NCBI GenBank assembly: GCA_017439585.1
Contig: JAFSIV010000004.1
Location: forward strand, 124,001 to 188,000
From: Clostridia bacterium
GTDB taxonomy: Bacteria > Bacillota > Clostridia > Oscillospirales > Acutalibacteraceae
Length of the DNA: 64,000 bases
Direction: 5' to 3'
Position numbers and translations under genes: made by a program
Notes under the pieces: model-generated
What the model was told of the DNA's origin: nothing
What the model saw: the letters and a program-made list of their open reading frames with translations, nothing else
The model's database searches: none
Shown here: in pieces, positions 3,999 through 53,900 of the stretch
Layout: each line of letters opens with the position of its first letter
Position numbering within the stretch: position 1 is the stretch's first letter

Positions 3999-5132
3999 AT
4001 GGCAAGTATCGATTTTAAACACGGACCTTACGGTGATTTGGCGCTTATCAGTATGCGCGGCTGCGAGGACATTTCTGCTAAGGTAGACTATTACCTTAAA
4101 AACTGGCGCGGTATTGATAGTGAGAGCGATGAGTCTTTTGTAATCTCTGCTAACTGCCCTCGTTTTGGTACGGGTGAAGCAAAAGCTGTTCTAAATCACA
4201 CAGCGAGAGGTTTGGATGTTTATATAATTTGCGATTGCTTTAATTATAATGTTACATATAAAATGTATGGTCAAACAGTTCCTATGAGTCCTGATGACCA
4301 TTTCCAAGATTTAAAGCGCGTAATTGCTGCTCTTGGCGGAAAGGCAAGAAGAATAACCGTTATTATGCCTATGCTTTACGAGGGAAGACAGCATAGAAGA
4401 ACCGCTAGAGAATCTATGGACTGCGCTATGGCTTTGCAAGAGTTAGTTGCTATGGGTGTTAAGAATATTATTACCTTTGATGCTCACGATCCTCGCGTTA
4501 ATAATGCTATTCCGCTTGAAGGCTTTGATAATGTTCAGGCAACCTATCAGATGATTAAGGCATTGCTTAAAACCGTTCCTGATATTAAGCTTGACCGCGA
4601 CCATACTATGATAGTATCTCCTGATGAGGGCGGTATGGGCAGATGTATTTATTATTCATCTGTTTTAGGCTTAGAGCTTGGTATGTTCTATAAGCGCCGC
4701 AATTATTCTGTTATTGTAAACGGCAGAAATCCGATTGAAGCTCACGAATTTTTAGGAAACGATATAAAGGGCAAGGATTTGATTTTGGTTGATGATATGA
4801 TTTCATCAGGCGAATCTATGCTCGATATTGCCGCTAAGCTTAAAGAAAAAGGCGCTGCCAGAATCTTCGTATTCTCAACCTTCGGTCTATTTGTTGAGGG
4901 ACTTGAAAAGTTTGATGAATATTATAAGAACGGTCTTATCGATAAGGTGTTTACCACTAACCTTATTTTCCAACCCGAAGCGCTTTTAAACCGCGAATGG
5001 TATTGCAGTGTTAATATGTCAAAATACATAGCTTTAATAGTTGAAACCTTAAATTACGATAATTCTATCAGCAGTCTTTTAGACCCGGTTGACAGAATTA
5101 AAAAGATTATGGCAAAATATAATCAAGGTTAA
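3999..5132 (+). CDS. prs: ribose-phosphate pyrophosphokinase (PRPP synthetase)
   Basis: The protein makes PRPP from ribose 5-phosphate and ATP for purine, pyrimidine, His and Trp synthesis. The C-terminal half has the PRPP-binding loop DLILVDDMISSGESMLDIA at about residues 259-277, and the middle has MPMLYEGRQHRR, matching the ATP-binding flexible-loop region. At 377 residues it is longer than the usual 310-320, in keeping with a longer Prs variant I associate with Clostridia. The N-terminal portion is also unlike the standard enzyme. The start has a strong GGAGG site at 3985-3989. It is a single-gene unit ended by the terminator at 5137. Confidence 0.88.
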   Translation: MASIDFKHGPYGDLALISMRGCEDISAKVDYYLKNWRGIDSESDESFVISANCPRFGTGEAKAVLNHTARGLDVYIICDCFNYNVTYKMYGQTVPMSPDDHFQDLKRVIAALGGKARRITVIMPMLYEGRQHRRTARESMDCAMALQELVAMGVKNIITFDAHDPRVNNAIPLEGFDNVQATYQMIKALLKTVPDIKLDRDHTMIVSPDEGGMGRCIYYSSVLGLELGMFYKRRNYSVIVNGRNPIEAHEFLGNDIKGKDLILVDDMISSGESMLDIAAKLKEKGAARIFVFSTFGLFVEGLEKFDEYYKNGLIDKVFTTNLIFQPEALLNREWYCSVNMSKYIALIVETLNYDNSISSLLDPVDRIKKIMAKYNQG

Positions 5133-11429: not shown

Positions 11430-11686
11430 AAAAAAATAAACTTCGCCCTGATTAACAGGACGAAGCATTAAAATTTAATTCTCCGCGGTACCACCCGTAT
11501 TTTCGCTCAAAGAGCAAACACTCTCTTGACATATAACGGTGTCCAACCGATGAAGCCTACTGAATTTTCAGCCACACTGCTCAAAAGGGAACTTCGATAA
11601 ACCCGCTCTTTAATGCGCTCGCAGCCTAAGACGCATACTCTCTTAAAAGGCAAAATTTATTTACTTTCCTTTGTCATCGCATTTAC
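11430..11686 (-). promoter_or_regulatory. T-box leader (tRNA-Phe responsive) of pheST
   Basis: The leader contains the T-box core GGGTGGTACCGCGG (11496-11483), which pairs with the acceptor end of uncharged tRNA. It is followed by a terminator hairpin, CTTCGTCCTG with CAGGGCGAAG plus T tract, at 11465-11430. A long stem I region lies upstream. A TTC triplet at 11591-11589 in GAAGTTCCC is my candidate Phe specifier. Uncharged tRNA-Phe would favour the antiterminator and switch pheST on. Confidence 0.93.
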
Positions 11687-14327: not shown

Positions 14328-14331
14328 ATTG

Positions 14332-14414
14332 TAGGGGAGGGTCTCCGCGCCCTCCCAATAAATTTATTATGGCTTTAAAAAACGGGAGGGCACAGAGACC
14401 CTCCCCTACAACCA
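14332..14414. repeat. long near-perfect palindrome (MITE/REP-like element)
   Basis: TTGTAGGGGAGGGTCTC at 14332-14348 is the inverse complement of 14398-14414, and the arms extend to about 28 bases with only two differences, CCGCG versus CTGTG, which still allow G-U pairs in RNA. The loop is about 27 bases. Its terminal TTGTAGGGG is typical of short palindromic elements scattered in Clostridia. No target-site duplication is obvious. It sits directly behind spoIVB and marks the left side of the accessory segment. Confidence 0.75.
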
Positions 14415-14417
14415 CCT

Positions 14418-14446: not shown

Positions 14447-14561
14447 ATATACCATAAAATTATTGCAATTTTTTAAATGATATTATAAACTAGAAATGTA
14501 TAAAGCTTAATTTTAGAAAAGAATGGTTAGGCATATTTTATTACTTAAAAAGAGGTATAAA

Positions 14562-14879
14562 ATGAAGATTAAAGAAACAATAATGCATTATATTGGGGTT
14601 TATGACGGTTGCGAAAAGAGAGTGATACAGAGAACGATAGAAAGTCATAGATCTGAATTTAAAAATAAGGATCAAGCATTTTTAGCGGTTAATGAGTGTA
14701 TCATTTGGCTTATTAAGAATAAATATATTGCTATGGTAAACTATAATGAAATGACTGATATGCAGAAGCGTTATTTTGAAAGTGATGGCGGTTTGATATA
14801 CAGCATTATTAAAAGATATAATGAATCAGAATATTTAAAGGAAAAATATGCTCAAAACTGCGAAGGGTATGGAAAATAA
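14562..14879 (+). CDS. orphan small protein, unknown function
   Basis: This is a 105-residue, charged, soluble protein starting MKIKETIMHYIGVYDG. The central part (FKNKDQAFLAVNECIIWLIKNKYIAMV) could be a helical or winged-helix fold, but I do not recognise a family. The ATG at 14562 has AAGAGG six bases upstream; an ATG at 14523 lacks a good site. Codon choice (many ATA, AGA, AAT) looks more AT-rich than its neighbours. It lies between a palindromic element and a candidate structured RNA, away from any housekeeping operon, and may be an accessory gene acquired together with them. Confidence 0.6.
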   Translation: MKIKETIMHYIGVYDGCEKRVIQRTIESHRSEFKNKDQAFLAVNECIIWLIKNKYIAMVNYNEMTDMQKRYFESDGGLIYSIIKRYNESEYLKEKYAQNCEGYGK

Positions 14880-14957: not shown

Positions 14958-14986
14958 TTGCAAATTTTAACAATGTATGTTAAACT
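14958..14986 (+). promoter_or_regulatory. possible promoter of the structured RNA
   Basis: TTGCAA (14958-14963) and TAAACT (14981-14986) are spaced 17 bp apart. The same TTGCAA -35 element with a 17-bp spacer occurs at three other promoters here. A start about 7 bases downstream would fall at 14993, the first base of the perfect 11-bp inner part of the closing stem. The -10 match is modest. Confidence 0.4.
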
Positions 14987-15216
14987 GATAGTGCCAAACT
15001 AACTGAATATTTTGTGTGAAATTGGGTGTATTTAATTTTTTATGCATAAATACGCTTGGTTTTTCGCAACATATAATTGTTATGGATTTGATAAAAATGC
15101 AAATTCCGGCGATTGTATGTTGTGAGCGTTTTACGCCCCATTTCACACTCGGTTAGTTTGGCGACTATCGGAGTTTGCGTTTTTTGTGCGGTTACTTCGG
15201 TAGCCGCACTTTTTAA
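14987..15216 (+). ncRNA. candidate structured non-coding RNA (6S-like or new) with own terminator
   Basis: A gene-free interval of 374 bp folds almost completely. P1 is 14987-15003 with 15152-15169 (17 bp, one bulged G). P2 is 15014-15026 with 15137-15148 (12 bp, one bulge). P2 encloses a junction with P3 (15028-15034/15047-15053, 7 bp), P4 (15066-15077/15112-15123, 12 bp with G-U pairs, topped by 15084-15090/15100-15107) and P5 (15126-15129/15133-15136). A textbook terminator follows: 10-bp stem with UUCG loop at 15186-15209, then a T run. The 183-nt closed domain with a junction, a 3'-side small hairpin and an apical stem resembles 6S RNA, which regulates RNA polymerase. I see no sequence hallmark that proves it. 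Alternatives are a leader RNA for the next gene or a new class. Confidence 0.6.
15186..15216 (+). terminator. UUCG-loop terminator of the structured RNA
   Basis: GTGCGGTTAC pairs with GTAGCCGCAC (one G-U) around a TTCG loop, followed by TTTTTAATTTTTT. It lies 38 bases before the start of the next gene, so it either ends a free RNA or gates entry into that gene. Confidence 0.9.
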
Positions 15217-15253
15217 TTTTTAGGAAAAACTCGAAGGTCGCCGAGGTGGTAAA

Positions 15254-16279
15254 ATGGGCATTTTTGATTTTGCAATCAACACTCAAGACGCTAAAATAGA
15301 AGATTTTAATAAAGCGGTTGATTGTTTAAAATATATGGAGCAAAGAAACAAAAGGGATAATGATAGCTATTATTTTGAAGAATATGAACAATGGATAAAA
15401 GCGATTTATATATTTATTGAAAGATGTATTGATTTTTATCCACCCTCAAAGAATTTTGATTTTTTATATAGAGATTTTAATATAAAAGAGGGGATAAAAC
15501 GTTATCTTCGCATTTATATTTTAATGGAGTATATGAGAAAAAAAGAATGTTTGTTATTTGCATATAGCTACTTTGAGAATGAAATAACAGATATGGAAAA
15601 GGATTTAACAGACTTTGTTAATACTTCAAATTTTATTCGTGAATTTATAATATCATATAATCGTGTGGTTGATTTTGATATGGAGGAATACAAAGAATTC
15701 GGTAAATTATTTAAAATAAATGATTTTGTATCAGATTATTTTCCATTTGTTAAAGCAGACTTTTCTTATAGTATTGGAATTAATGAAAGCGGTGAAGAAT
15801 GTTTTGAAGTTATAAATTTTTATACATTTGAATATATCGTTTTCAGAGGACAATTATTAAAACTTAATTTAAGTGATTTTTACTCGAATGAGGAAAAAAT
15901 TCAAGATTATTTTAAACAGCATTCGGAATATAAAGAAAAGTTCGATGCATTGATTAAAGAAATATTAAATAATAGAATTAAAAAGGAAGAACTTTACTCA
16001 AAGTTTTCAAATGTTTGGAATAGAAGAAAAGAATATGTGTTGCAAGCTATTAAAAAGTATGAAGATCCGTTGGCACCGCTAATTCTCAAATCAGAAAATA
16101 AAGATTTAGATGTTTTAAAAGAGTATGTATCAGAAAAAGAGAAACTTGAATTAAGTATTAGCCAATGTTCTTTTGAAATAGATTCTATAAATAGAGAAAT
16201 ACAAGAGTTATCTTGTTTAAATAAGGTAAGAATGTTTTTATTATCTTTGCCGGATTTTATACCATATAAGAATATTTAG
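15254..16279 (+). CDS. orphan 341-residue protein with C-terminal coiled coil
   Basis: I do not recognise this protein. It is soluble, acidic and aromatic-rich, with no signal peptide or membrane helix. The N-terminal half is helical and rich in Tyr/Phe/Glu (DNDSYYFEEYEQWIKAIYIF). The last 80 residues contain a coiled-coil stretch (EKEKLELSISQCSFEIDSIN) and then a hydrophobic end (MFLLSLPDFIPYKNI). The start has GAGGTGG four bases upstream. Codon use is noticeably richer in ATA, AGA and AAT than flanking housekeeping genes, which suggests later acquisition. It directly follows the structured RNA and its terminator, so regulation by that RNA, or a joint function, is possible but unproven. Confidence 0.7.
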   Translation: MGIFDFAINTQDAKIEDFNKAVDCLKYMEQRNKRDNDSYYFEEYEQWIKAIYIFIERCIDFYPPSKNFDFLYRDFNIKEGIKRYLRIYILMEYMRKKECLLFAYSYFENEITDMEKDLTDFVNTSNFIREFIISYNRVVDFDMEEYKEFGKLFKINDFVSDYFPFVKADFSYSIGINESGEECFEVINFYTFEYIVFRGQLLKLNLSDFYSNEEKIQDYFKQHSEYKEKFDALIKEILNNRIKKEELYSKFSNVWNRRKEYVLQAIKKYEDPLAPLILKSENKDLDVLKEYVSEKEKLELSISQCSFEIDSINREIQELSCLNKVRMFLLSLPDFIPYKNI

Positions 16280-25682: not shown

Positions 25683-25689
25683 TACTTTA

Positions 25690-25801
25690 TAATCTTCGGG
25701 GCGAGGTGCAATTCCTCACCGGTGGTAAAAGCCCACGAGCCTTTTTAGGTTGATTTGGTGTAACTCCAAAGCCGACGGTATAGTCCGGATGAAAGAAGAT
25801 G
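25690..25801 (+). promoter_or_regulatory. FMN riboswitch (RFN element)
   Basis: The closing stem ATCTTC/GAAGAT encloses the conserved RFN segments GGGGCGAGGTGCAATTCC, CACCGGTGGTAAAAGCCCAC, GCCGACGGTATAGTCCGGAT and GAAAGAAGA. It binds FMN and here should switch the ribU gene off by termination when flavin is plentiful. Confidence 0.97.
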
Positions 25802-25835
25802 CAAATATATTTTCTATGTTTATATTTGTATTAAG

Positions 25836-53775: not shown

Positions 53776-53803
53776 ATAATTTTCGTATTCTTTTTATTAA
53801 TCG

Positions 53804-53900
53804 TCAGCGGGATGCGATAGTCAAACCGTGGTTTAAAACCTTCGTCCGCACGGCAACTCCCCGTCCATACGGCACTTAACGCAAGACTATCTACTCTGTA
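53804..53900 (-). promoter_or_regulatory. tetrahydrofolate (THF) riboswitch
   Basis: The transcript shows the THF-II-free, classical THF pattern: AGAGTAGATAGTCTTGCGTT, AAGTGCCGTATGGACGGGGA, GTTGCCGTGCGGACGAAGG, and finally GACTATCGCATCCCGCT. GTAGAT...GACTATCGCATC forms the outer helices and GCCGTA/TGCCGT-type pairing the inner hairpin. It senses folates and controls folT. Confidence 0.93.

Follow-up and report, generated by a model that had tools for sequence, protein, structure and literature searches.

A putative leader RNA with an intrinsic terminator and competing helices, found in multiple copies in gut Clostridia

Transcription attenuators of the trp type, with their four mutually exclusive strands, and the platforms of riboswitches are built from competing helices which end in a terminator or an antiterminator. 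The riboswitches for cyclic diguanosine monophosphate (c-di-GMP), GEMM-I and GEMM-II, combine a transcription-terminating platform with many copies per genome, located in front of unrelated and often exported genes. Here we describe an element at positions 14987-15216 of a 64,000-nucleotide stretch from a Clostridia bacterium of the Acutalibacteraceae (assembly GCA_017439585.1, contig JAFSIV010000004.1, positions 124,001 to 188,000 of the forward strand; "the window"). It shares the chain of competing helices with the former group and the regulon type and terminating platform with the GEMM riboswitches. The element is a structured RNA that carries its own terminator and probably functions as a leader. 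From its sequence and those of its relatives we regard it as a riboswitch-type attenuator without an entry in Rfam 15, i.e., a putative sensor with ligand binding as a candidate role. Unlike trp-type attenuators it has no kept leader peptide at the strand termed X below, and its sensing domain is otherwise shaped. Its antiterminator moreover pairs with the loop and upper stem of the terminator, unlike those of trp-type attenuators and riboswitch platforms.

The Rfam search for 6S RNA and other known RNAs, which a preliminary description of the locus had proposed, gave no family at the curated cut-off for the window copy and 12 weak matches at E <= 10. The best of these by bits was L20_leader (RF00558), with 21.0 bits compared to a cut-off of 58.7 and at most 23.9 in 20 other loci. 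This leader resembles the element in its long-range pairing before a terminator, but the genes behind the element do not encode ribosomal proteins. No match to EAR, likewise an Rfam family, was obtained. The copies in 20 long-type loci and 20 mostly divergent loci also remained without a family at the cut-off, and the sole matches above it in the 20 long-type loci were two tRNAs away from the copies. Among open-licence papers, a scope outside of which most subscription journals lie, nothing describing the element was found; passages of two discovery papers (PMC11109978 and PMC8632094) contain nothing like it and, outside their references, no Ruminococcus-type hosts.

The preliminary description had favoured 6S RNA (RF00013), with which the element indeed shares its size and a long closed arm of about 180 nt. 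However, the 6S model found no match at E <= 10 in the own genome (a 1.49-Mb draft, 87% complete), though 8 of 14 control genomes match, and it was absent from the 12 weak matches mentioned above. The occurrence in many copies, the position of start codons directly after the terminator and the helices competing around it do not fit 6S RNA either, and we consider an identity with it extremely improbable. The second option of that description, a leader of an unnamed class, has fared better, as no Rfam 15 class was assigned and the element probably acts as a leader.

Terminator, antiterminator and competing helices

The element ends in an intrinsic terminator, T2 (15186-15214; this and all other parts of the element are on the + strand). 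Its stem comprises 10 of 10 possible pairs (15186-15195 with 15200-15209) and carries a UUCG loop, so that the 10-bp UUCG hairpin of the preliminary description is present as a stem-loop at 15186-15209, followed by a U run at 15210-15214. T2 was found in 47/47 aligned long-type copies (alignment A1), with 98.1% of positions paired and four of the ten pairs changed on both sides. Upstream of it lies strand Y, whose antiterminator part (CUAUCGGAGU, 15165-15174) can form 10/10 pairs with strand Z (15194-15203) in the top of T2. The antiterminator Y:Z excludes the terminator, and it covaries: among 229 unique copies Y pairs with the top of T2 over a median of 10 bp, and permutation of the partners among copies lowered the mean score from 9.80 to 8.19 (z 16.7). 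In 69 divergent copies the score fell from 9.28 to 7.08 (z 10.6). The test set was obtained from 289 copies with a terminator call, 282 of which passed the filter. Differing standard pairs occur at most positions of the Y:Z pair tables, which are conditional on pairing. Divergent families have a terminator loop other than UUCG, and the letters found there instead match the strand just behind the closing stem P1. One result weighs against this interpretation: UUCG loops swapped into non-UUCG copies lowered the Y:Z median only from 9.25 to 8.3.

A second part of Y (CGGAGUUUGCGUUUUU, 15169-15184) can be captured over 16/16 pairs by strand X (AAAAAUGCAAAUUCCG, 15093-15108), forming helix T1, which ends in U6 and might itself serve as an earlier terminator. 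T1 is 98.5% paired in the 47 copies, with one pair changed on both sides, and has a median length of 15 bp in 166 copies; the permutation test for X:Y gave z 13.2 in 265 copies and z 9.8 in the 69 divergent ones. Strand X is also part of hairpin P4 (15084-15106; 15084-15090 with 15100-15106, 7/7 pairs). As both use X, P4 and T1 are mutually exclusive. P4 is 96.0% paired in the 47 copies, but none of its pairs changed on both sides; its permutation test yielded z 14.2 (265 copies) and z 9.8 (69 divergent copies). Since P4, X:Y and Y:Z all pass the permutation test, the strands can be read as a four-strand chain, P4-5':X:Y:Z, as is typical of switches. Competition and covariation are seen between P4:X and X:Y, but a conserved binding pocket is not evident. 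The same strand X bears on the question whether a translating ribosome decides in a leader-peptide attenuator, for in the window copy an AUG within X opens a short frame. This AUG is not kept, because at least 9 of the 47 rows carry C for U (CG pairs, column 141); with other upstream frames not systematically searched, we judge a leader peptide to be very unlikely.

The leader has its own promoter, read in the window copy as a -35-like box TTGCAA (14958-14963) and, 17 nt after it, a -10-like box TAAACT (14981-14986). In 166 copies aligned on P1 the logo shows T 83%, T 80% and G 48% at -35 to -33, and T 75, A 82, T 56, A 78, A 62 and T 78% at -12 to -7 from the P1 start; it is not fully independent, because the choice of P1 carried a small bonus for promoter-like letters. 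The transcript likely starts at or just before the 5' strand of P1 (14993-15006), which forms 14/14 pairs with the 3' strand (15149-15162). The 11 inner pairs are 97.9% paired in the 47 copies, and seven of them changed on both sides. P1 is the conserved closing stem. The six outermost pairs of the preliminary description (14987-14992/15164-15169) are all possible in only 16/166 copies (slack <=2 nt); they lie downstream of the -10 box and outside P1, and therefore at or before the likely transcript start.

With a predicted energy of -95.4 kcal/mol the interval 14987-15216 is as strongly structured as had been supposed (z -9.60 against 200 dinucleotide shuffles with a mean of -51.25 and a standard deviation of 4.6; no shuffle was as low). 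Instead of the supposed junction with three hairpins, the predicted fold stacks its helices into a single long arm that is interrupted by internal loops. Part of it is the P3 arm (15064-15125; 15064-15081 with 15108-15125, 18/18 pairs in the predicted fold), which carries P4 at its tip. P3 differs in sequence and length among copies, and most of the P2-P3 arm varies freely. Common to the aligned copies are the closing stem, a hairpin GAAUUUG-AUAAAAAUG-CAAAUUC, the tail GACWAUCGGAGUUUGCGUUUUU and the terminator, often followed by AGGAGG and a start codon.

Alignment A1 was derived from 55 references by leaving out eight (six short-type loci, one with two copies, and the cut L087). The references stem from 60 fetched regions without L060, L079, L081, L084 and L088, in which the 5' domain is incomplete, and the duplicate L062. 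Overall covariation in the 47 copies was 0.276 compared to 0.149 in shuffled alignments and at most 0.068 with partners slid. RNAalifold on a sequence-only alignment recovered T1 and T2 and missed P1, because the variable arm was misaligned. The promoter, the alternative helices X:Y and Y:Z and the repetition of the element in its own and many other genomes had been overlooked before.

Folding order and candidate signals

For the window copy, helix energies of -2.7 (P4), -9.5 (Y:Z), -16.3 (T2) and -19.2 kcal/mol (T1 duplex) were calculated; the energy of T1 in place is not computable, because T1 crosses P1. When the window transcript is cut at 15203, its lowest-energy fold holds all pairs of P1 (14), P4 (7) and Y:Z (10), and T2 wins once its second half is made. 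The folding order was compared in 259 of 267 copies, those with a Y:Z of at least 6 bp. Cut at the end of Z, 98% of them form at least 70% of Y:Z; at full length Y:Z is kept in 59% and T2 is formed in 41%. This close balance in the folding model fits a switch and does not demonstrate one. Two folds appear to be open to the leader, one that stops and one that permits reading of the downstream gene. In the proposed mechanism P4 would hold X and exclude X:Y, leaving Y for Z; Y:Z would then block T2, and the downstream gene would be read. Capture of Y by X would form T1 and exclude Y:Z, and T2 would terminate. In two leaders of one genome (L079 and L081, near position 5000 of either locus) the promoter is immediately followed by Y and T2, and the part from P1 to X is missing. 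Under the model such leaders would always be ON; they are perhaps the result of one event, as both lie in the same genome before BspA-like genes.

The decision between the folds need not be made by a ligand. It could be set by an RNA-binding protein, by temperature or by how fast transcription proceeds at the U runs, and we see such non-ligand control as a serious possibility, if short of a probable one. The helix energies favour a kinetic choice, the P2-P3 arm is mostly variable, and few unpaired letters are conserved: AAUA behind P1 and, in the short type, CUCUNUUU behind X. On the other hand, some unpaired elements are conserved, and the presence of as many as 16 copies in a genome, before unrelated genes, resembles the regulons of second-messenger riboswitches. 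In 65 short-type copies both elements are kept unpaired in the ON fold, and they may be the place where a signal acts. The short-type architecture (e.g., L306, L329 and L339) is further characterized by an A run of X that pairs with a U run in P4; CUCUNUUU follows X.

Rfam gave no match to the GEMM riboswitches at the window copy. No GGDEF match was obtained in 8 of 14 carrier genomes searched, five of these eight having a completeness of 95% or more, and this argues against c-di-GMP as the signal. Synthases for cyclic diadenosine monophosphate (c-di-AMP) and guanosine tetraphosphate (ppGpp) are encoded in 14/14 carrier genomes, so both stay among the candidate signals.

Distribution and genes behind the leader

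A DNA search with 14960-15225 matched 56 of 60 genomes (the own one and relatives) at E <= 1, many of them at chance level, and also revealed relatives that match over their full length as well as strong partial matches, several to a genome. The 60 fetched regions all contain a match at E <= 0.01. With R1, a model of the 3' part of the element built from 54 copies, six matches at E <= 1 were detected in the own genome, four of them at E <= 3.3e-8. Within the order 138/394 genomes matched at E <= 0.001, within the class 81/341 at E <= 1e-4, and within the phylum one of 299, which is the own genome. The three samples overlap, and the copy counts from them are minimum values, because scoring was limited to 12 to 16 candidates in each genome. 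Six genomes picked as rich have 16, 13, 12, 13, 12 and 12 matches at E <= 0.001.

An exact pattern retrieved at least 118 stretches; the titles listed are metagenome-assembled genomes of Clostridia, Clostridiales, Oscillospiraceae, Ruminococcaceae and Ruminococcus and at most three less specific names. This pattern found no copy in viral contigs or plasmids and one record among phages, MT835503.1 from human faeces, in which the whole unit (promoter, P1, X, Y and T2) precedes a gene for an EcoRI-type methyltransferase (L216, ~325-545).

The multi-copy occurrence and copies near contig ends are what a recent mobile repeat could leave, an explanation that was rejected because the copies diverge strongly in sequence yet keep their pairing. 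An insertion boundary could not be read from synteny; spoIVB is nearby in only one of 12 phosphoglucomutase regions (L282), with other genes between. The own genome also holds a degenerate copy with P1-like and Y letters and without a terminator (L221, 1501-1544).

Gene starts were assigned by a simple rule behind the 189 copies that are followed by more than 300 nt. A gene start lies within 110 nt of 158 of them, with a ribosome site in 134 cases. A start codon with ribosome site no more than 30 nt from T2 occurs behind 40.7% of the 189 copies, compared to 3.7% of random places. An intrinsic terminator between a promoter and a gene, as seen from T2, the promoter logo and the start codons, is the arrangement of transcription attenuators. 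Alternatively, the copies could form a family of trans-acting small RNAs with their own promoter and terminator which merely tend to lie before genes. Each copy has both signals, for 31 of the 189 copies no gene start was found, and two or three complete units occur in tandem arrays 200-500 nt apart (L208, L090, L114, L158, L124, L100 and L179). Such a family is nevertheless unlikely in our view, given the enrichment of gene starts with ribosome sites close to T2 and the covariation of the terminator top with the upstream Y, which a constitutive terminator does not need. In two of the arrays three units, each with promoter and terminator, precede one gene (L208, 698-1323; L090, 4508-5023 on the reverse strand).

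The genes behind the putative attenuator are unrelated and often encode cell-surface proteins, and many gut Clostridia carry several copies. Among 119 downstream genes 56 Pfam families were recognized, including BspA-type repeats (19), SHOCT (7), DUF6809 (4), zinc ribbon (4) and AMP-binding (3). By a simple rule, 51 of 82 downstream proteins of at least 150 amino acids (aa) have a hydrophobic N-terminus, compared to 204 of 827 neighbours (odds ratio 5.0, p 1.2e-11); without all 19 BspA-type proteins, assumed to be among the 51, 32 of 63 remain. Anti-phage defence was rejected as a theme of the cargo, because the nine PADLOC families among the 119 genes have one member each.

We tentatively propose, without rating it as probable, a new class of riboswitch scale in many families of gut Clostridia and on a gut phage contig, in which one common intracellular signal would control mobile and cell-surface accessory genes, as an RNA-level licence for the expression of acquired cargo. 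If the reading as an attenuator holds true, an RNA switch absent from Rfam 15 would be in use in about one in four sampled genomes of a dominant class of gut bacteria. It would control genes that shape how these bacteria meet host, diet and phage, and its signal, once identified, would point to a signalling route in mostly uncultured organisms. With its many copies and clear antiterminator, such a switch lends itself to direct tests.

The locus in the window

The element is located in a gene-free interval between open reading frames (ORFs) of 118 aa (14523-14879) and 341 aa (15254-16279). The description of both as orphan genes was upheld: neither the 118-aa ORF (piece 14553-14876 scanned) nor the 341-aa protein, the product of the putatively regulated gene on the + strand, has a Pfam or NCBIfam family above the curated cut-off. 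A ribosome-site-like GAGGTGG (15243-15249, + strand) was read from the window copy, in which the start codon follows 44 nt behind T2. In one congener (L038), the same leader precedes a gene for a 346-aa relative of the 341-aa protein.

Between spoIVB and the 118-aa ORF, an imperfect inverted repeat around GTAGGGGAGGGTCTC extends over 14330-14415. It is probably a dispersed intergenic repeat, since the window contains its core two times and seven of 372 fetched loci contain it as well. Ordinary riboswitches are present in the window as well, namely a T-box (11453-11686, - strand), an FMN (25688-25804, + strand) and a THF riboswitch (53803-53900, - strand).
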